From Aestuariivivens insulae (lineage in GTDB: Bacteria > Bacteroidota > Bacteroidia > Flavobacteriales > Flavobacteriaceae): a stretch of DNA of 64,000 bases. This document shows positions 3,048-13,467 of the stretch, piece after piece; the stretch's first letter is position 1; every line of letters starts with the position of its first letter. The notes under the pieces were generated by a model. It had not been told where the DNA came from. It searched no databases and worked only from the letters and a program-made list of their open reading frames with translations. Made by a program: the position numbers and the translations under genes. The DNA is taken from assembly GCF_022662195.1 (NCBI RefSeq), contig NZ_JAKMCS010000003.1:186001-250000 (forward strand), read 5' to 3'.

Positions 3048-4601
3048 TTATTTTACGTTATCCAGATTATAATAGCCGCCCTTATTTTCGGTTCTCTGCA
3101 ACGACTGATTGATAATTAAATGCGCTACGTTAACCATATTTCGTAATTCGCAAAGTGAAGTGGTAATCTTGGAAGCTTTATATAAATCTTCGACCTCGTT
3201 ATAAATTAAATCGAGGTGCTTTATGGCTTTGGTTAAACGGCTATTGCTACGTACTATACCTACATAGTTTCGCATTAAGGCTTGCAACTGCCTTAGGTTA
3301 TGCTGTATTAACACATGTTCCTTGGCTATGGTCGTTCCTTCATCGCTCCAATCGGGAATAGCAACCTCAACATCCTGAAGTTCATGGGTACTGTGATATT
3401 TAAAAATATTATGGGCATAGACCAAGGCTTCCAGCAATGAGTTTGAAGCCAGTCTGTTGGCGCCATGCAAGCCTGTTCGCGTACATTCACCACAGGCAAA
3501 CAAATTGGGCACCGAGGTTTTCCCTGCTTTATCTACCACAATACCACCACACAAATAATGCGATGCCGGCACCACGGGAATCCAATCTTCTTCAATATTT
3601 ATATGGTTCGCCTTGCATTTATCATAAATATTGGGGAAATGGATTTTGAACCTTTCAATATCCAAATGGGTACAGTCTAAAAACACATGGGTCTCACCTG
3701 TTTTTTTCAGCTCGTTATCAATGCTTTGCGACACAATATCGCGGGAGGCCAATTCGGCACGCGCATCGTAATCCAACATAAACCGCTTGCCTGATTTATT
3801 TCGTAAGTAGGCACCAAAGCCCCTAACAGCTTCCGATATTAAAAACGACGATTCGCCTTCTACTTCATATAAGGCCGTAGGATGAAATTGCACAAACTCC
3901 ATATCCTTAATCAGGGCCTTGGCTCGATATGCCATCGCAATACCATCACCAGTGGCAATAACCGGATTGGTAGTATGGCCATACACACGACCTATACCGC
4001 CCGACGCCAATAATGTGCTTTTAGAAGTTATGGTGAAAATGCTATTGTCTTCCTGGTCGAAAACATAGGCTCCATAACAGGCATCTGCTTTGGGCTTTTG
4101 GCCTTTAATATGATGGTTTGTAATTAAATCGATAGCAAAATGATGCGGCAAAAGGGTAATATTATCCAACTGATGGGCTCTTGCCAACAAGGCCCGCTCT
4201 ATTTCTGCCCCGGTAATATCTTTGTGGTGCACCACGCGGTATTCGGAATGCCCGCCTTCTTTACCCAAATCCAGGTTACCACTTTTATCGACATCAAAAT
4301 TGGCTCCCCACGCGACAAGCTCCTTAAACCGTTGTGGTCCTTCTTTAATGACCATTTCAACCACGGCTTCATCGCACAGGCCATCTCCAGCAATTAGGGT
4401 GTCTTCAATATGCTTTTTAAAGGAGTCCTTTTCATCGTCTAAAACCACGGCAACACCGCCTTGGGCATACTTGGTATTAGACTCTTCTTCGCTGGATTTA
4501 GTAACAACGGTTACCTGTCTATTAGGAAATTTCTCGGCTATTTTTACCGAAAACGTTAAGCCCGCTATACCGGAACCAATTACTAAATAGTCTGTAGTCA
4601 T
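3048..4601 (-). CDS. nadB: L-aspartate oxidase
   Basis: Flavoenzyme that oxidises L-aspartate to iminoaspartate, the first step of de novo NAD synthesis. The product is passed to NadA. The N-terminal FAD-binding motif is VIGSGIAGLTFS. SNTKYAQGGVAVV and the GHSEYRVVHHKDITGAEIE region are typical of the succinate dehydrogenase/aspartate oxidase flavoprotein family, as are SHYLCGGIVVD and the FACGECTRTGLHGANRLASN signature. The length of 517 residues is normal. It lies 5 bases downstream of nadA in a two-gene operon. Cytosolic. Confidence 0.96.
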   Translation of the reverse strand: MTTDYLVIGSGIAGLTFSVKIAEKFPNRQVTVVTKSSEEESNTKYAQGGVAVVLDDEKDSFKKHIEDTLIAGDGLCDEAVVEMVIKEGPQRFKELVAWGANFDVDKSGNLDLGKEGGHSEYRVVHHKDITGAEIERALLARAHQLDNITLLPHHFAIDLITNHHIKGQKPKADACYGAYVFDQEDNSIFTITSKSTLLASGGIGRVYGHTTNPVIATGDGIAMAYRAKALIKDMEFVQFHPTALYEVEGESSFLISEAVRGFGAYLRNKSGKRFMLDYDARAELASRDIVSQSIDNELKKTGETHVFLDCTHLDIERFKIHFPNIYDKCKANHINIEEDWIPVVPASHYLCGGIVVDKAGKTSVPNLFACGECTRTGLHGANRLASNSLLEALVYAHNIFKYHSTHELQDVEVAIPDWSDEGTTIAKEHVLIQHNLRQLQALMRNYVGIVRSNSRLTKAIKHLDLIYNEVEDLYKASKITTSLCELRNMVNVAHLIINQSLQRTENKGGYYNLDNVK

Positions 4602-4606
4602 TATAA

Positions 4607-5554
4607 TTATTTAGACAGCTCTAACATACGCTCAATAGGGAGTAAAGCACGATCTATTATGGCTTTATCTACTTCTATTTGCGGCGATTCGTTTAACAAA
4701 CAATCGTAGAGCTTTTGCATGGTATTCATTTTCATGAAATGGCACTCACTACAGGCACAGGTATTATCTTCTTTTGCTGGCGCAGGGATCAATTCTGTAT
4801 TTGGCATTTCTTCTTGCATTTTGTGCAAAATACCTGCCTCTGTAGCCACAATAAATTTTTGGTCTTGGTGCTGCTTCACATAATTGATCATACCGGATGT
4901 AGAGCCAATATAAGTGGCCGTATTCAATATATGGTCTTCCGACTCTGGATGTGCTATAATTTTATAATCTGGGTGTTTTTTATGAAGTTCAATTAACTTA
5001 TCCATTGAAAATGCTTCATGTACGATACAGCTACCATCCCAAAGCAACATGTCGCGTCCTGTTTCTTTGATAATATACGCCCCCAAGTTTTTGTCCGGGG
5101 CAAAAATCATAGGAGTCTCTTTAGGTATGGACTGTACAATTTTTAAAGCATTTGAGGATGTACATACAATATCACTCAACGCCTTGATTTCTGCAGAACA
5201 GTTCACATAAGTAATCACCACATGGTTAGGGTGTGCTTCCGTAAATTGTTTAAAAGCCTCTGGCGGACAAGAATCTGCCAAAGAACAGCCCGCATTTAGA
5301 TCGGGCAATACTACGGTTTTGTTTGGGTTTAATATTTTGGCAGTCTCGGCCATAAAATGCACCCCTGCAAATACAATAATATCGGCATCTGTCTCGGCGG
5401 CTTTTTGCGACAAGCCTAAACTGTCTCCTACATAATCGGCAATATCCTGTATTTCTGGCACTTGATAATAATGTGCCAAAATCACGGCGTTCTTTTCTTC
5501 TTTTAGGCGTTGTATCTCTTTTACTAAATCCATAGCTATCTCTTCAGAATACAT
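4607..5554 (-). CDS. nadA: Quinolinate synthase
   Basis: [4Fe-4S] enzyme that condenses iminoaspartate with dihydroxyacetone phosphate to quinolinate. Visible family motifs are [20 protein letters not shown], a Cys in the [11 protein letters not shown] segment, [20 protein letters not shown], and near the C-terminus the [12 protein letters not shown] segment that supplies the last cluster ligand. The 315 residues match the family. I kept the ATG at 5554; an ATG at 5533 ([10 protein letters not shown]) is an alternative start that would remove only seven residues. It is the first gene of nadA-nadB and is divergent from an Rrf2-type regulator gene. Confidence 0.96.
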
Positions 5555-5663: not shown

Positions 5664-6137
5664 ATGTTATCTATTGCTTGTAAAAATGCCATTCGTTCTG
5701 TTTTATATTTAGCCCTTAAGAGCAACGGAGAGAATAAAGTAGGTGCAAAATCAATTGCAAACGCATTGGATATACCACAACCTTTCCTCTCTAAATTATT
5801 GCAACAGCTGGCTAAAAACAACTTGGTATCATCAACCAAAGGCCCTAATGGTGGATTTTATTTATCTGAAAAAAATAAAGAAAATACCATTTGGGATATC
5901 ATTATAAGTATCGATGGCGGAAATAAATTTGATGAGTGCTTTTTGGGTTTATCGGTTTGTGACGATAAAAACCCCTGCCCAGTTCATGCTATTGTAGCTC
6001 CTTTTAAGGTTTATATTACTGAAAACTTTAGAGGTAAAACAATTCTCGAATACAGCAATGAAATAAAAAAAACAGGGAAACTTATCTCCTTAAAAGATTT
6101 TAATCCTTTAGGAGATAAGATTAACAAGAGCTCATAA
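5664..6137 (+). CDS. Rrf2-family transcriptional regulator
   Basis: A 157-residue winged-helix regulator of the Rrf2 family. The N-terminal MLSIACKNAIRSVLYLAL and the recognition-helix stretch IPQPFLSKLLQQLAKNNLV, followed by the wing GPNGGFYLS, are characteristic. Three cysteines (C92, C99, C105) are spaced as in members that bind a [2Fe-2S] or [4Fe-4S] cluster, so it may sense Fe-S, redox or NO status (inference). It is divergent from nadA, whose product is an Fe-S enzyme, and convergent with nrdD, an oxygen-sensitive enzyme; both are plausible targets. The ATG at 5664 gives the normal N-terminus. Confidence 0.9.
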   Translation: MLSIACKNAIRSVLYLALKSNGENKVGAKSIANALDIPQPFLSKLLQQLAKNNLVSSTKGPNGGFYLSEKNKENTIWDIIISIDGGNKFDECFLGLSVCDDKNPCPVHAIVAPFKVYITENFRGKTILEYSNEIKKTGKLISLKDFNPLGDKINKSS

Positions 6138-6175: not shown

Positions 6176-8041
6176 TTATAATTGCGTACTGTGAACACCA
6201 GTATTTTCTGATTTTGTTTTTTTTGATAACGCATCCACTCTGTTTTTTGATAAGTGTTGTCCCGGCTTTTCAAAATGATAGTGTCTTAAATCGTGTTCTT
6301 TTTGCCTTCCCGAACTAAAACTGGATACACGTTTAAGATATCCTATTACCCGAGTGGCATGGTCTACATCTTCTGAACCACATGCATTACAGTTATTTTT
6401 GGTTTGTTTCTCGATATGTTCACAAGTATTACAAACGGTGATTCTAATATTAAAACAAAAATAATTACACCCAGATGTTGCCGTAGCGTGAATTAACTTA
6501 ACAAAACCTTCTTTATTTGGTGCTTCTTCTAAATTAAGGTGCAAAGCAGAGCCTCCATCAAGATATTTAATAAGTTCTTTGCCGTGTAAAATTATTTTAT
6601 CTAAAGTATTGGTTTGCTGATCTTCAACTTTGTAGAAATAAGAATTGTAACAGTCTCGTGGCACAAAATACCCATCTTCCTTATCCCACTTTGCATTTTT
6701 AACTCCTAAGTTTTCGGCTGGAACAAATTCGGTATTAAACATATAACCATATTGTTTTTTAGCGCGTTTATTTTCATCATAAATTGCTTTCAAATGCTTA
6801 TTTATAAACTTTTTGTAAACCTTGTTGTTCCCTGGGCTTATCCCTTGGCTTTCTGCTGCCTCTACCATCCCGTTTATACCAATGGTTAAAAACTGTTTAT
6901 CTAAAGAAATAAACCCAGCCTTATATACTGGCAATAATCCTGCGGTTTCATATTCTTCAATTAAAGATCTATAGGCTACTTGGTATTTATGTACTTTTTT
7001 TACCTCTTGAACAATATCCTTTCCTTGTTGCACCAACCTGTTCATATTTAAGGTTATTACATTAATGGATCCTGTGGCCACACCTCCTGCACCTAATGAA
7101 TAACTAAAAGTATTGTCGCTGATTTCATTTCTAAGTCTACAACACGATGCTAAGCTATCGGCGTTTTCAGATTGATATATAAAAAATGAATTGCCTTCAC
7201 TTAATTCTTGGGCACACATATTAGTAAATTCTGTATCAACAGGTTGCCCCTCATTTATTAGCATGGCCGCAGTCACCACAGGAAATGTTAGTATGGCTTT
7301 GGTTCGTTCTTGGTTAAACCATTTCATGAAAAAGGCTTGTAATGCTTTTACCCTATGCCATTGTGGTCTAGTCATATCGGGAAACACAAAATCACCAAAC
7401 ATACTATTAAAATACGGTTCATCGTAAATCGAAATATTCCAAAAAACAGACTGATAACCTCGTGCGGCGGCAGGTTGGTTTATAGCATAAACCACATGCT
7501 GTAAATGGTTGGCAATTAACTTTTGGTTAGTTTTCAAATAATCGTCACCATAATCTTTTGAGGCGAAATAATCGAAATACATTAAAAACTCAACTGTTGC
7601 CAAGGCACCGGCAAATTGCGAACTTATAGCAAAAACAAGGTTTACAAATTCTCCGCAGAAACTCTCCAAATGCTGTGGTGCCCTACTTTCTCCTCCTAAT
7701 TTGGTCAAACCATCGAATAAAAACGGATACATACTAATGGATACACAATAGGGCTTTAGTGACGTTTCATCGTGCACATAAATTTCATGTGCCTCAATTT
7801 GTCGGGTGTATTCATGAGCTAATGCCTCACCAAAAAGCGCTTTTATTTTGCGCTTAACCAATGCTCTATTAACCTGTATATTAATATCCTTATTAAGTTC
7901 TGCTTCCATTGTTGCTATGTTTTTAGATACTACATTGGCATTTGCATCTACTTTAGAACCATCTGCAGCATTTTGGGAAGCAATATACTGGTCAATAAAA
8001 TTAATTTTCTTGGTAACTTGTTCGTTTGTTAATCGAATCAT
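6176..8041 (-). CDS. nrdD: Anaerobic (class III) ribonucleoside-triphosphate reductase
   Basis: Glycyl-radical enzyme that reduces NTPs to dNTPs without oxygen. The catalytic Cys pair lies at C300-C301 (SLASCCRLRNE). The zinc-binding C..C pairs VCNTC and NCNAC precede the radical site RVIGYL, with Gly at about residue 567. The protein is 621 residues. Its N-terminus leads directly into the catalytic domain without a recognisable ATP-cone, so the usual dATP/ATP overall-activity switch seems absent. The tail after the radical loop (54 residues) is somewhat long. nrdG follows 4 bases downstream in the same operon order as in other bacteria if read from nrdG: the message is nrdG then nrdD. Confidence 0.95.
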   Translation of the reverse strand: MIRLTNEQVTKKINFIDQYIASQNAADGSKVDANANVVSKNIATMEAELNKDINIQVNRALVKRKIKALFGEALAHEYTRQIEAHEIYVHDETSLKPYCVSISMYPFLFDGLTKLGGESRAPQHLESFCGEFVNLVFAISSQFAGALATVEFLMYFDYFASKDYGDDYLKTNQKLIANHLQHVVYAINQPAAARGYQSVFWNISIYDEPYFNSMFGDFVFPDMTRPQWHRVKALQAFFMKWFNQERTKAILTFPVVTAAMLINEGQPVDTEFTNMCAQELSEGNSFFIYQSENADSLASCCRLRNEISDNTFSYSLGAGGVATGSINVITLNMNRLVQQGKDIVQEVKKVHKYQVAYRSLIEEYETAGLLPVYKAGFISLDKQFLTIGINGMVEAAESQGISPGNNKVYKKFINKHLKAIYDENKRAKKQYGYMFNTEFVPAENLGVKNAKWDKEDGYFVPRDCYNSYFYKVEDQQTNTLDKIILHGKELIKYLDGGSALHLNLEEAPNKEGFVKLIHATATSGCNYFCFNIRITVCNTCEHIEKQTKNNCNACGSEDVDHATRVIGYLKRVSSFSSGRQKEHDLRHYHFEKPGQHLSKNRVDALSKKTKSENTGVHSTQL

Positions 8042-8045
8042 AAGG

Positions 8046-8495
8046 TTAGTTTTTAATGAATAAATGATTTAATAATTTTTGTGTCTTTATTTCTATGAAC
8101 TTTTGATTGGTAGTGGCACTGTTAAGTCCTCCTAATTTAGGATTCCAAGATCCAGTTTTTAACCATGTCAACTCTTTTATCAGGACTTTAGATATATGTT
8201 CTTCCCCTGTATATAGACAAGTTTTGTAATTGTTTTTTTTTGCAATTTTCAAAAGCTGTATCAATTCTTTTTCATGCCATTCTCCCCCCATAAACAGGAC
8301 GCAGGTTGCAAAGCCCTTATACTTGTTAAGAATTTTATTACAACCCTCAACAGTAAGCGGGGTTCCACTTTTGGCATTCCATAAAAATGGGGAATGACAA
8401 CCCTCACACCTTAGCGGACATCCGGAAATGGAAAAGCATAAACTTATTTCCCCTGGCACTTCTTGCAGCGCTATTTCAAAATTATGGTAGTTCAT
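8046..8495 (-). CDS. nrdG: Anaerobic ribonucleotide reductase activating protein
   Basis: Radical-SAM activase that installs the glycyl radical on NrdD. The CX3CX2C cluster motif is C26, C30 and C33 (SGCPLRCEGCHSP), and FMGGEW is the conserved SAM-binding GGE. The length of 149 residues is at the short end of the family, which is usual for NrdG. It is the upstream gene of the nrdG-nrdD pair and ends 4 bases before the nrdD start, which suggests translational coupling. Confidence 0.93.
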   Translation of the reverse strand: MNYHNFEIALQEVPGEISLCFSISGCPLRCEGCHSPFLWNAKSGTPLTVEGCNKILNKYKGFATCVLFMGGEWHEKELIQLLKIAKKNNYKTCLYTGEEHISKVLIKELTWLKTGSWNPKLGGLNSATTNQKFIEIKTQKLLNHLFIKN

Positions 8496-8798: not shown

Positions 8799-10616
8799 CT
8801 ATTTTAAATTAACCTTTGAGGGCACCTCAATAATTTCAGAATGGATTCGATTTAATACCATTTCACTTTTATCCAATTCGTTTAAAATGGCTTCTCTCAT
8901 ACTTTCAAACACCTGCTTGGTGTCGTTAAATAAATTGCGATAGTATGAAACACCCGCTATCATATTATTAGCAAAAACCAATAAATAGTTTGCTTCTTTT
9001 TTATTGAAAGGGGCTTTAGTAGTCTCTAATTTGGTTTTTAAAAAATCGATGTAGATATGTAGTTCCTTTATAAATAAGTTTGGACGATCTTTTCTGGCTA
9101 TCATATTGGCTCTACCATAAATATGATCGGTTATATTTTTTAAACTCATCACTTTTGAATAGTATGCCATGTTTGGACCCGGGCATATAGAGACACCTTT
9201 ACCTTCTACCTTAGTATCCAATTTGTATTTTAATAACGCTGAAGTCCCTAGCCCAACACAAGTGCATGATTTTTCTGTTATGGCATTGTATTGTTTTTGA
9301 TAGTCTTCTTCTGGCAGTCCTTGCTTCTGTAAATCCTTTATTTTTAAATGTTGGTATTCTCTGGAGGCCGTGCAAATCCCCGTATCCTTAAACTCTTTAT
9401 TTAGTGCCACAAACTTTTTTGGGCATGAACTCCCTGGTCTTCCCTTGTTAATTAGGGTCTGCTTTTCGGCGTCTTTAGTATTATCTTTAAGGTTGTTAAA
9501 AGGCACACCTAAAGGCGATATATCACTTAAGTACAGATCTTTTTCTTCTGCCTTAGCTAGCTTATCCAATGTCTCACCGTCTACCGAAGTTGCTTCGGGC
9601 ACCAATAAAAAGGGCGACCCCCAACCTATGGAATCCAAATTATAATGTTTTAACAAAAAGGCATGCTCTTCATCTGTTCCCACACCTCCCTGGGCGGTAA
9701 CCTTTATTTGTAATGGTTGTTTAGGAACTGTACGCCCTTGGGCTTCCAATGCTTTTTTCAACAAGGCCTCCATATCTACCCTTAATTCGGCTCTTTTTTC
9801 TTTAAACTCAGCCAAAACAGGCCCTAAAAGGAGTCCGTCTGTAGCAAAAGCATGCCCTCCACAGTTAAGACCGGATTCAATTCTATATTCTGAAACCCAT
9901 AATCCTTTTTTGGCCAAAAACTTACCTTGAACCAATGCCGACCTATAATCGCTAACCTTTAAGATGATCTTCTTTTTAAATAGGCCTTCTTCGTTTGGGA
10001 AAAAATCATCGAACTGTGATAGGTAACTGTAAAGCCTCGGGTTCATTCCGGCAGAAAGCACCACCGAGGAATTTAGTTTACTTTTTACAAAACCCCTTAA
10101 AGCAGCATGGGCATCGTTATATATGGTAGGTAGTTTTTCCTTATTTTTATAATTGTCCTTATCGACCTTGGTCATGATATTTACATCAATACTACCCATA
10201 GACAGATTATGAGCTGCCCATTGCTTTATTTCTGAAAAGTCAAACCCTTTGGAAGCCAATTTTTTAAACTCTGTTTTAAGTTTAGAGGTTTCTGGAAGCA
10301 TATCTATATAGGCTAAAAAATCTTCGGTTTTTTCGGTTGACAGCTGTTTTAATTCCTCAAATTTCTTGGTGGCCAAATCACTTATTAAATTAAGATATGA
10401 TGTGATTCTTTGGGCTCGAAAATCTTCAGCTCTATTAGTTATTTCTTGGTAAGGCAGCTTAAATTTTTCGCAATACATTTTTCTTAATTTCTCAAGCAAG
10501 ATATCATCGACCAAAGAAATTACAGAATCCATACCATATTGTGCTACTTTTAGAGGTGTATCAATTGTAAAGCCAATTCCCATAACGGGAATGTGAAACG
10601 AATGTGTGTTTTTCAT
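8799..10616 (-). CDS. Conserved large protein of unknown function, about 605 residues
   Basis: I do not recognise a characterised family, although the sequence looks like a conserved Bacteroidota protein. The N-terminus contains HIPVMGIGFTIDTPLKVAQY, reminiscent of the first strand of FMN-type TIM barrels. Later motifs are ESGLNCGGHAFATDG, TAQGGVGTDEEHAFLL and IGWGSPFLLVPEAT. Clustered cysteines appear in GSSCPKK, GICTAS, CTCVGLG and SICPGPN, a layout that could bind metal or an Fe-S cluster. The C-terminal 120 residues look helical. No signal peptide or membrane segment is seen. A TTG at 10637 extends the frame by seven codons but overlaps a -7-like box, so the ATG at 10616 is preferred. It is divergent from ppc across 262 bases. 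Confidence 0.8.
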   Translation of the reverse strand: MKNTHSFHIPVMGIGFTIDTPLKVAQYGMDSVISLVDDILLEKLRKMYCEKFKLPYQEITNRAEDFRAQRITSYLNLISDLATKKFEELKQLSTEKTEDFLAYIDMLPETSKLKTEFKKLASKGFDFSEIKQWAAHNLSMGSIDVNIMTKVDKDNYKNKEKLPTIYNDAHAALRGFVKSKLNSSVVLSAGMNPRLYSYLSQFDDFFPNEEGLFKKKIILKVSDYRSALVQGKFLAKKGLWVSEYRIESGLNCGGHAFATDGLLLGPVLAEFKEKRAELRVDMEALLKKALEAQGRTVPKQPLQIKVTAQGGVGTDEEHAFLLKHYNLDSIGWGSPFLLVPEATSVDGETLDKLAKAEEKDLYLSDISPLGVPFNNLKDNTKDAEKQTLINKGRPGSSCPKKFVALNKEFKDTGICTASREYQHLKIKDLQKQGLPEEDYQKQYNAITEKSCTCVGLGTSALLKYKLDTKVEGKGVSICPGPNMAYYSKVMSLKNITDHIYGRANMIARKDRPNLFIKELHIYIDFLKTKLETTKAPFNKKEANYLLVFANNMIAGVSYYRNLFNDTKQVFESMREAILNELDKSEMVLNRIHSEIIEVPSKVNLK

Positions 10617-10634: not shown

Positions 10635-10642
10635 CAAATATA
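10635..10642 (-). promoter_or_regulatory. Candidate -7 element TATATTTG
   Basis: On the minus strand the bases read TATATTTG, matching TAnnTTTG, 19 bases upstream of the ATG at 10616. It overlaps the alternative TTG start at 10637, which argues that this TTG is not used. No clear -33 TTG was found. Confidence 0.42.
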
Positions 10643-10878
10643 TTGTGTATAAAACCCGCAGAACATGATTTATGTCATGTAGTAAAACATATCCCGCTTA
10701 TTAAAACCCTAATTTATGCAAGGAAAGCATTAAAAAGATACATGGATAGCAAGCCTTTTTTTTAATTATTCTTAATGAGAATTTACCAAATAGCTTAAAT
10801 TGATAAAACTTAGCCTTAAACACGCTCCTTAATTTAAGCTTTAGTATTTTTATGGCTAATTTTCAATAGACTGATACT

Positions 10879-13467
10879 ATGTCCGTAGAACCAAAATTAA
10901 AACGATTTAAGCAAAATGTATTGTCAAAATACCAAATATACAACAGTATATTTATGACCTTACCTTTTGACACCATTACAAAAACAGGAGTTTTATTGCC
11001 TTTATTCCATGAAACCTGCCAAAAAGGGTTTGCTAAAGGTGATGATCCCACCACTATAGTCGATACTTTTTTTAAGAAATACCAAGCCAGACGTACCAAA
11101 GAAAGCCAAATAAATTTACTGTTTAGGTTTATCCAGTACATAGAACGCCAGGTAGTTTTATTTGATGCCATTGAAGATGCCGCTTTCCCTATAATCAATA
11201 ATATGGAAGGGCTGGGAACTTTACGCAACCTAAAGGAAACTGCTAATTCTGAAAACCGATTACAGGAACTCAAAGACTATTTAGAGGAGTTTAAGGTACG
11301 TATCGTCCTAACGGCTCACCCTACTCAGTTTTACCCTGGCTCTGTTTTAGGTATTATAACCGATTTAACCGAAGCCATTAAAGAAAACAACCTAAACGAG
11401 ATTAATAATTTATTTGGTCAGTTAGGTAAGACGCCGTTTTTCAAAAGGGAAAAACCAACCCCTTACGATGAAGCCATAAGCTTAATCTGGTATTTAGAGA
11501 ATGTGTTTTATACTTCTTTTGGAGAAATTTACAATTACATCCAACAAAATATTTACGACGACGGCAAGAAGCACAACGAAATCATTAACATTGGCTTCTG
11601 GCCTGGTGGTGACCGTGACGGCAACCCTTTTGTTAAGCCAGACACAACCTTAAAAGTAGCCAAAAAGCTTAAACAGGCTGTCCTTAAAAAATACTATCAG
11701 GACTTAAAGAATTTAAGACGACGCCTAACCTTTAGGGATGTTGAGGAACGCATTGTAAGGCTGGAAACCCTTATGTACAATTACAGCCTAGATCCTTATA
11801 AGGAAGATGCTATTACTTATAAAGAACTCATTAAGGAATTACTAAGCATAAGAAACCTGGTTGTTGAAGAACACCAATCGCTATACGTTTCTCAAATAAA
11901 CACTTTAATTAACAGAATCCATCTTTTTGGTTACCATTTTGCCACATTGGACATTAGGCAAGATAGTAGAATACACCATACCGTTTTCACTACGGTTATT
12001 GACCACTTGATTGAAAAAGGCAGTTCATTCTTCCCTAAAAATTATCACGATTTAAGTGAAGCTGAACAAATAGAGATCCTATCGAAAGCAAACGATGACA
12101 TAGATGATTTAAGTGTATTCGATGATGAAATGGTGGTCAATACCCTTAAGACTATTAAGTGCATTAAAGACATTCAGTCTAATAACGGGGAAAAAGGTGC
12201 TAACCGTTACATTATTAGTAACAACCAAACGGCTTTAAATGTTATGCAGTTGTTTGCTATGCTAAAAATGGCAGCCTTTAAAGACGATTTAACAGTTGAT
12301 GTGGTTCCATTATTTGAAACCATTCCTGACCTAGAAAATGCCCCTGCCGTTATGGAGCAATTGTATAGCAACCCGGCCTATAGAGCGCATTTGGCCAAAC
12401 GCGGCAATAGACAAACCATTATGTTAGGCTTTTCAGACGGTACTAAAGATGGTGGGTACTTAATGGCCAACTGGGGTATTTACAAGGCCAAGGAACTCCT
12501 TACCGAAATGTCCAGAAAATATGATATTACAGCCATATTTTTTGATGGCCGTGGTGGACCACCAGCAAGAGGTGGCGGAAAGACCCATAATTTTTATGCT
12601 TCGTTAGGCCCAACCATAGAAGACAAAGAAGTACAGTTAACCATACAAGGACAAACCATTAGTTCTAACTTTGGAACTTTGGATTCTTCGCAATACAACT
12701 TGGAGCAACTTATAAGTTCCGGATTGTTTAACCGCTTCGGAAAAAATAAAATTCCGATATCTGCCGACGATAAAGCCGTAATGAACGATTTGGCCGAAAC
12801 CAGTTACCAAGCCTATAAGGATTTTAAAAGTCACCCTATGTTCATTCCGTATTTGGAACGCATGAGTACTTTAAAATACTATGCTAAAACTAATATTGGT
12901 AGCCGTCCATCTAAACGTTCTAAATCTGATAAATTGGTATTTTCCGATTTAAGGGCCATACCATTTGTAGGGTCTTGGAGCCAGTTAAAACAAAACGTAC
13001 CAGGATTTTTTGGTGTGGGCACGGCCATAAAAGCTTATGAAGATAGAGGAGAATTAGACAAGGTTATACAACTTTACAATAACTCTAAGTTCTTTAAAAC
13101 TTTATTGGAAAACAGTATGATGTCCCTAACCAAATCGTTCTTCGATCTTACAAAATACATGTCGAAAGACGAAGAATTTGGTGCATTTTGGGGCATTATA
13201 TACGACGAATACCTAACCACTAAACGCCTACTCTTAAAAGTAGCAGGTTATAAGGAACTAATGGAAAATGAACCTTCGGGCAAAGCCTCCATCGAGGTAC
13301 GCGAATCTATTGTATTACCTCTATTGACGATACAGCAATACGCCCTTAAAAAGGTTCAGGAATTGAATAAAGCCGATGTTAAGGACGAAGAGCAACTTAA
13401 GATTTTTGAAAAAATCGTTACCCGTTCTTTATTTGGTAATATTAATGCCAGTAGGAATTCGGCGTAA
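10879..13467 (+). CDS. ppc: Phosphoenolpyruvate carboxylase
   Basis: Carboxylates PEP with bicarbonate to oxaloacetate, the main anaplerotic entry to the TCA cycle. The catalytic His is H147 in RIVLTAHPTQ. The PEP/metal region GFWPGGDRDGNPFV and the glycine-rich loop FFDGRGGPPARGGG are intact. The C-terminus ends NINASRNSA, close to the conserved C-terminal NTG-type end of the family. The 862 residues are normal. It is a single-gene unit with its own terminator, and it uses bicarbonate, the ion handled by the carbonic anhydrase/SulP operon at 30-36 kb. Confidence 0.96.
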   Translation: MSVEPKLKRFKQNVLSKYQIYNSIFMTLPFDTITKTGVLLPLFHETCQKGFAKGDDPTTIVDTFFKKYQARRTKESQINLLFRFIQYIERQVVLFDAIEDAAFPIINNMEGLGTLRNLKETANSENRLQELKDYLEEFKVRIVLTAHPTQFYPGSVLGIITDLTEAIKENNLNEINNLFGQLGKTPFFKREKPTPYDEAISLIWYLENVFYTSFGEIYNYIQQNIYDDGKKHNEIINIGFWPGGDRDGNPFVKPDTTLKVAKKLKQAVLKKYYQDLKNLRRRLTFRDVEERIVRLETLMYNYSLDPYKEDAITYKELIKELLSIRNLVVEEHQSLYVSQINTLINRIHLFGYHFATLDIRQDSRIHHTVFTTVIDHLIEKGSSFFPKNYHDLSEAEQIEILSKANDDIDDLSVFDDEMVVNTLKTIKCIKDIQSNNGEKGANRYIISNNQTALNVMQLFAMLKMAAFKDDLTVDVVPLFETIPDLENAPAVMEQLYSNPAYRAHLAKRGNRQTIMLGFSDGTKDGGYLMANWGIYKAKELLTEMSRKYDITAIFFDGRGGPPARGGGKTHNFYASLGPTIEDKEVQLTIQGQTISSNFGTLDSSQYNLEQLISSGLFNRFGKNKIPISADDKAVMNDLAETSYQAYKDFKSHPMFIPYLERMSTLKYYAKTNIGSRPSKRSKSDKLVFSDLRAIPFVGSWSQLKQNVPGFFGVGTAIKAYEDRGELDKVIQLYNNSKFFKTLLENSMMSLTKSFFDLTKYMSKDEEFGAFWGIIYDEYLTTKRLLLKVAGYKELMENEPSGKASIEVRESIVLPLLTIQQYALKKVQELNKADVKDEEQLKIFEKIVTRSLFGNINASRNSA

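Follow-up and report, generated by a model that had tools for sequence, protein, structure and literature searches.

A widespread, unnamed Bacteroidota protein with a predicted FabX-like FMN barrel, an invariant cysteine region and a likely low-oxygen control site

What does a large protein of Aestuariivivens insulae do, whose gene lies back to back with that of PEP carboxylase (ppc) and which belongs to no named family? The gene is located in a stretch of 64,000 nucleotides (contig NZ_JAKMCS010000003.1, positions 186,001 to 250,000), called here the window; the protein and its relatives are referred to as A1. A preliminary description, based on the letters of the DNA, had reported an open reading frame of about 605 residues opposite ppc, and this frame is present at 8799-10616 (Table 1), with the ATG at 10614-10616 and the stop codon at 8799-8801 of the minus strand. 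Its translation contains all four of the cysteine motifs listed there (GSSCPKK, GICTAS, CTCVGLG and SICPGPN). An alternative start is possible at a TTG 21 bases upstream of the ATG.

Table 1. Features of the A1 gene, its product and its surroundings in the window
Feature	Position	Strand	Basis
nadB, NAD synthesis	3048..4601	-	named by eye from translation
nadA, NAD synthesis	4607..5554	-	named by eye from translation
Rrf2-family regulator	5664..6137	+	Pfam PF02082, TIGR00738 above cut-off
NrdD, anaerobic ribonucleotide reductase (RNR)	6176..8041	-	TIGR02827 above cut-off
NrdG, anaerobic RNR activase, next gene	8046..8495	-	TIGR02826 above cut-off
A1 gene (605-residue protein), stop included	8799..10616	-	open reading frame and homologues
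C-terminal helical extension, residues 503-605, outside the FabX match	8802..9110	-	AlphaFold2; VIA-align
Five-cysteine region, residues 395-482 (C398, C415, C451, C453, C478), proposed Fe-S site	9171..9434	-	84/84 conservation
Remaining barrel, residues 141-376	9489..10196	-	AlphaFold2; VIA-align to FabX
ESGLNCGGH, residues 247-255, with C252 and H255	9852..9878	-	84/84 conservation; alignment to FabX
Mostly helical insertion between barrel strands, residues 36-140	10197..10511	-	AlphaFold2 secondary structure; alignment
Start of predicted TIM barrel, residues 1-35, with FHIPVMGIGFT loop	10512..10616	-	AlphaFold2; alignment
TATATTTG, promoter-box candidate	10635..10642	-	read from sequence; nearer A1 than the dyad
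FNR/CRP-like dyad ATGATTTATGTCAT	10665..10678	.	centre 55 bases before A1 start, 208 before ppc
PEP carboxylase (ppc), divergent neighbour of A1	10879..13467	+	Pfam PF00311, E 1.3e-142

Of the 149 genomes sampled from the bacterial family of the window, 57 have a relative of A1, as do 142 of 395 Bacteroidota genomes (the own genome counted in both cases), so that the reading frame is far beyond chance. Outside the phylum, relatives came from one Desulfatitalea MAG and one Omnitrophota MAG. The gene is present in a single copy in its own genome. Two full-length copies were seen in genome G295 (C25 and C31), and a long copy together with a second, broken one in G241 (C1:15222-16931 and 4371170-4372462); in G051 (C165:19525-21319) the gene is split between two frames with an internal stop, which points to a frameshift or an assembly error.

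The preliminary description could not name a family, and our sequence searches agree with it. A1 exceeded the cut-off of no Pfam family, and searches of Pfam, NCBIfam, PHROGs and PDB with its sequences gave chance-like matches only. The commonest of these was PRK00420 (17 of 30 members, best value 0.00043), followed here by Spc29 (six of 30, best 0.00029), and in PDB an apolipoprotein came up (0.15). No flavoprotein was retrieved by hmmsearch of PDB, PF03060 (Pfam nitronate monooxygenase, NMO) was not among the best 25 of 34 families for 30 A1 members, and no match was found in plasmid and phage sequences. Topic-based literature searches showed no paper on the family among the entries listed, the family having no name to search by.

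Conservation was counted in 84 full-length members including that of the window; the partial sequences L020 and L029 were dropped. Since L022 and L037 apparently represent one contig, the counts of 84 here and of 85 below hold at least one duplicate. The conserved look of the protein was confirmed, with 117 query residues identical in at least 83 of the 84 members. Six cysteines are invariant (C252, C398, C415, C451, C453 and C478, all 84/84), so the lack of conserved cysteines in homologues that the preliminary description had allowed for did not occur; C49 is not invariant. H255 of the xGGH motif is found in all 84 members. Within ESGLNCGGH the positions inspected (Glu, Ser, Gly, Asn, Cys, Gly, Gly, His) show no variation, and neither do QGGxG and CxGPN. 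The commonest spacing of the last five cysteines is C-x16-C-x35-C-x-C-x24-C, each gap occurring in 75 to 84 of the 84 members. A metal cofactor is likely.

The divergent position of ppc had been taken as a hint of a link from A1 to PEP or to central carbon metabolism. Besides the divergent pair itself, a pyruvate phosphate dikinase (PPDK) gene preceded by a dyad in the own genome would fit this proposal. We examined gene order at 33 A1 loci, the window included, some of which are cut by contig ends. ppc adjoins A1 in only six and lies within about 6 kb in eight of them, and the adjacent loci belong only to relatives with 68-75% identity to the window protein. The gene pair is thus not kept across Flavobacteriia, as the preliminary description had suggested checking, and the A1-ppc pairing is a local feature. 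In addition, the dyad discussed below is 208 bases from ppc compared with 55 from A1. We rejected a central carbon role on gene order and consider it extremely improbable.

Other neighbors recur at some of the 33 loci: nadA-nadB (by eye) near 11 and an Rrf2 gene near six, the divergent locus L028 having both. At the Pedobacter locus L027, the genes after A1 code for a PAS protein and a response regulator; 4.3 kb downstream lie a hemN-like gene and part of a P-type ATPase gene (all by eye). In three Chlorobi MAGs (L013, L014, L015) a gene resembling acyl-CoA dehydrogenases by eye follows A1 on the same strand. Inspection by eye of nine loci and selected others of the 33 revealed no fatty acid synthesis genes near A1, this Chlorobi gene coming closest to one. 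Low oxygen provides a better context for A1 than ppc, as the following two lines of evidence indicate.

The first is the dyad in the A1 promoter. ATGA-N6-TCAT is present in 30 of the 85 regions upstream of A1 members (own region included), with a Markov expectation of 0.62 on average and at most 3 in 300 rounds; it was discovered by a dyad scan of the same regions in which it was counted. The next commonest dyads in that scan were A/T runs, and the exact dyad is absent from the other 55 regions. Genome-wide, ATGAYNNNNRTCAT has 36 sites and its reversed control 29, and with one mismatch it was not enriched in the window (9 sites, 8.2 expected). Since the pattern alone is barely above the control, the case for the dyad is made by the homologous promoters and by the genes behind the best-scoring sites. 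Closer to the gene, TATATTTG presumably fits the Bacteroidota -7 box TAnnTTTG.

Using a scoring matrix built from 28 distinct dyad sites of other loci, we ranked the 36 sites of the genome, and the window site came fourth. The first site precedes a gene for an FNR-type regulator (98.7 bits with the Fnr model, less than the cut-off of 228), and a P-type ATPase gene is divergent from it. The fifth and sixth precede class II RNR (TIGR02504) and hemN (TIGR00538), the 11th is 252 bases away from a cbb3 oxidase, and the 16th and 19th precede pta and PPDK, all of these five assignments being above cut-off. A dyad is also found upstream of hemA (named by eye) and of a gene for a 4Fe-4S ferredoxin-like protein. 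Several high-scoring sites, among them the 8th to 10th, lie ahead of genes for which no part in low-oxygen life is evident. Of the 20 best-ranked sites 18 are intergenic, compared with 2 of the 16 lowest, but such scores are favoured by AT-rich intergenic DNA; site L156 was classed as coding, probably through the choice of start codon (judged by eye). Stretches L151-L164 of genome G000, with a dyad like TATGAYATATRTCATA, make up a candidate FNR-type regulon that also contains cytochrome c and a DsrO-like ferredoxin protein.

A1 thus has what is expected of a member of an FNR regulon, namely an upstream dyad shared with known low-oxygen genes. Judging from the sequence, the window dyad is likely the low-oxygen control switch of A1, to which an FNR-type regulator would bind.

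The second line of evidence comes from gene content. Among the 149 family genomes, RNR of class II or III was present in 51 of 57 A1 carriers and in 22 of 92 non-carriers (p 8e-16, uncorrected for kinship). The link was observed both in genomes of at least 3 Mb (45 of 50 carriers, 16 of 56 non-carriers, p 6e-11) and in smaller ones (6 of 7 and 6 of 31, p 0.002), five genomes of unknown size being left out of these strata. KatG, the control, showed no link (39/57 carriers, 70/92 non-carriers, p 0.34; for genomes of at least 3 Mb 36/50 and 48/56, p 0.097). It should be mentioned that the genome lists were compiled by hand, that KatG was counted at E 1e-100 (109 genomes, 107 over cut-off) with 20 of the KatG-negative genomes assigned by elimination, and that the class II set includes five genomes with a shorter, higher-scoring type; when four genomes with this type and without A1 were left out, p was still below 1e-13. 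The exceptions are the 22 non-carriers that have an oxygen-independent RNR without A1 and six of the 57 carriers that have neither RNR. Altogether, we consider a low-oxygen role of A1 highly probable.

Which reaction could such a protein catalyze? We built an AlphaFold2 model of A1 from 30 sequences (pLDDT 87.7, pTM 0.89). It predicts a TIM barrel interrupted by a helical insertion (36-140) and, further on, a cysteine region (about 395-482) and long C-terminal helices; the barrel strands of its main part are at residues 143-148, 184-188, 216-221, 241-247, 305-309, 329-331 and 361-364, and C252 sits beside the predicted flavin site. The first Foldseek match of the model was FabX of Helicobacter pylori (E 2.9e-9) and the second PfaD, with enoyl reductase domains, NMO and FabK among the further ones. 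VIA-align gave FabX a Z score of 28.4 (rmsd 3.3), with 336 of 372 residues aligned and model residues 1-502 spanned. PfaD (4z9r) scored 25.6, the enoyl reductase portions of fatty acid synthases reached at most 24.9, NMO, quinone reductase and FabK gave 20.4-24.0, and IMPDH gave about 17.

The resemblance of the first strand to FMN-type barrels, noted in the preliminary description, has therefore a counterpart in the predicted model, which matches FMN barrels, FabX best. Of the checks proposed there, fold comparison yielded a confident match, while profile searches did not link the sequence confidently to any characterised family: the predicted barrel matches NMO, FabK, FabX and PfaD structures, and the PF03060 cut-off is not reached. 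As regards the proposed metal or flavin cofactor, the FMN-type barrel and the invariant cysteines favour it, the cofactor itself being a prediction. Going by the model, the barrel very probably holds FMN, and an Fe-S cluster is quite probable.

Since NMO and NADH:quinone reductase structures are among the fold matches, we considered that A1 detoxifies nitro compounds or quinones. These structures rank lower (Z 20.4-24.0) and A1 has no Pfam NMO match. Moreover, NMO uses O2 according to the consulted part of PMC3032703 and so fits a low-oxygen promoter badly. We regard this function as very improbable.

A1 could also be an oxygen-independent enzyme of another O2-requiring pathway, e.g., late haem synthesis, with the NMO barrel re-used. 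The dyads upstream of hemN and, by eye, hemA in the own genome and the hemN-like gene of the Pedobacter locus agree with this, although FNR regulons commonly include haem genes. No porphyrin enzyme was recognised among the best 50 VIA-align matches, and the active-site histidine of A1 aligns with that of FabX. A haem-related function thus appears improbable.

A third possibility is a low-oxygen FMN/Fe-S enzyme working on acyl thioesters in the reducing direction, as an enoyl or dienoyl reductase, and receiving electrons through the cluster from ferredoxin or a similar carrier. Its fold would be that of FabK, PfaD and other enoyl reductases, the ferredoxin-like gene with an upstream dyad could supply the carrier, and the acyl-CoA-dehydrogenase-like gene behind A1 in the Chlorobi MAGs is in line with it. 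The closest fold is nevertheless that of a dehydrogenase, FabX (Z 28.4, compared with 22.8-23.7 for FabK); this argument is weak because a fold match is silent on the direction of the reaction. We consider a reductase rather unlikely.

The residues known from FabX were compared with A1. According to the available text of PMC8626469, FabX is an FMN-containing acyl-ACP dehydrogenase/isomerase with the catalytic residue His182 and a [4Fe-4S] cluster on C300, C304, C308 and C320; it binds ACP by helix 7, where Arg160 contacts ACP, and depends on O2, no other acceptor having been found for it. Two MAFFT modes agree around His255 and on FabX residues 220-243. Localpair gets strand 3 and the first loops of the barrel wrong (FabX 22-28, 99, 101, 147), most of which are aligned by genafpair alone. 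Both modes place H255 on His182, C252 on Ser179 and Ser/Thr334 on Thr243, and one mode places Asn146 on Asn99 and the FHIPVMGIGFT loop on FabX 23-28. FabX Glu175 falls on Ser248 in both modes, one residue off the invariant Glu247. Three of the four ACP-contact residues of helix 7 are similar in A1 and one, Arg160, is not: R225 (R in 83 of 84 members) aligns with Lys152 and K237 (K in 82) with Arg164, both in either mode, V229 (I in 76, V in 6) with Ile156, and F233 (F in 77) with Arg160.

The fold and regulation of A1 are well supported, and we infer its cofactors and substrate. The best reading, which we hold with somewhat less than even confidence, is that of a low-oxygen FMN/Fe-S oxidoreductase of acyl thioesters that perhaps makes unsaturated fatty acids oxygen-independently. 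When oxygen is scarce, binding of an FNR-type regulator to the dyad, some 55 bases ahead of the start codon, would turn on A1; the same regulator would switch on other oxygen-independent or high-affinity-oxygen functions. The protein would fold into an NMO-type TIM barrel holding FMN, followed by a cysteine subdomain with one Fe-S cluster. A thioester substrate would enter the barrel, His255 and FMN would carry out hydride and proton transfer, with Cys252 beside the flavin, and electrons would move between FMN and the cluster. Most likely, as in FabX, a saturated medium-chain acyl-ACP would be converted to cis-3-enoyl-ACP by dehydrogenation and isomerisation and then elongated to unsaturated fatty acids, the acceptor being other than O2.

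Bacteroidota lacking FabA would thereby possess an oxygen-independent route beside their O2-dependent desaturases. No FabA was found over cut-off in the 149 family genomes; four had one below cut-off, three of these within proteins of about 2,200 residues, and the own genome encodes two FA_desaturase-family proteins. Drawn by analogy, unsaturated fatty acid synthesis is a tentative assignment of the role of A1, only a little short of an even chance.

Over one third of the Bacteroidota genomes sampled carry A1, yet no Pfam or NCBIfam family represents it. If the proposed reading is true, it would explain how Flavobacteriaceae without FabA synthesize unsaturated lipids and build membranes without oxygen, and would make electron disposal by FabX-type enzymes in the absence of O2 testable. 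Even with a wrong substrate, the fold, cofactors and oxygen control of A1 are concrete predictions, and the dyad offers a candidate FNR-type regulon.

Of known systems, PfaD, FabK and nitronate monooxygenases share the barrel of A1 (Z 20-26) and have no sequence match to it at the thresholds used; Fe-S clusters are not known in PfaD/FabK enoyl reductases and nitronate monooxygenases, as stated in the consulted part of PMC8626469.

A link in sequence is provided by FabX-like NMO proteins of Bacteroidota of about 420 residues, whose alignment we designate A2. Six of them match Pfam NMO (best E 1.7e-30), which A1 does not, and one searched against PDB had FabX as its best match (3.5e-27). They were seen in two Bacteroidota families (f16 and f18; L127-L132, L171-L182), the first six having eight cysteines each. 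Profile-profile comparison of A1 (84 sequences) with A2 (18 sequences) gave a score of 33.7 over 260 columns (probability 12%, E 0.0024), a score that none of 60 column shuffles attained (maximum 28.6), nor any of five unrelated families (maximum 28.1) or a reversed profile (22.7); with smaller alignments the probability was 1.7%. By profile alone, a relation of A1 to generic NMO proteins could not be told apart from the shuffles (score 25.3).

A1 and A2 are collinear over 257-260 columns, xGGH included, with the aligned motifs VNIM/NCM, SAGMN/AAGLN, SGLNCGGH/EGPLAGGH and QGGVGT/AGGIFTGT. Four cysteines are also collinear (A2/A1 319/398, 332/415, 358/451 and 360/453), whereas A2-type proteins have two more (CWTC) and no clear partner for C478. 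A2 matched 83 of 395 genomes (E up to 1e-60) and A1 142; going by the listings no genome had both, and A2 had no match in the own genome at E 1e-60. This exclusion is confounded by taxonomy, A2 being confined to two families. Alone, the sequence link is moderate; together with the fold it is convincing.

NGO1024 (UfaA) of N. gonorrhoeae is of the FabX type, and its anaerobic induction parallels the role proposed for A1, the two being likened by the available description and not by sequence. It is induced when oxygen is absent (the listed values are 9.6 and 7.9), the regulator given in the consulted table being MtrR and not FNR (PMC3032703). For the anaerobic synthesis of unsaturated fatty acids it is reported to be essential, its acceptor being unknown (PMC11300592, part of the text).

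The closest counterpart is FabX itself (HP0773, PDB 7e1q and 9lt8), the best structural match of A1, which shares with it the TIM barrel, the position of the catalytic histidine and the cysteine subdomain after the barrel. The identity is about 19% over the structural alignment, below the bound of >50% used for FabX homologues in the consulted part of PMC8626469. A1 is also longer (605 versus 363 residues): its helical insertion, about 105 residues, exceeds that of FabX, and its last 100 or so residues extend beyond the FabX match. C252, beside the predicted flavin site, aligns with Ser179. The FabX spacing C-x3-C-x3-C-x11-C was not found in A1, and because of this difference we do not file A1 as FabX. 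Rather, with the fold, histidine, cysteine region and regulation that such an enzyme would need, A1 may be, as we suggest with clearly less than even confidence, an unrecognised Bacteroidota enzyme that makes unsaturated fatty acids independently of oxygen: a highly divergent branch beside FabX and NGO1024 with an anaerobic acceptor, its own Fe-S ligands, an active-site cysteine and extra helical parts.
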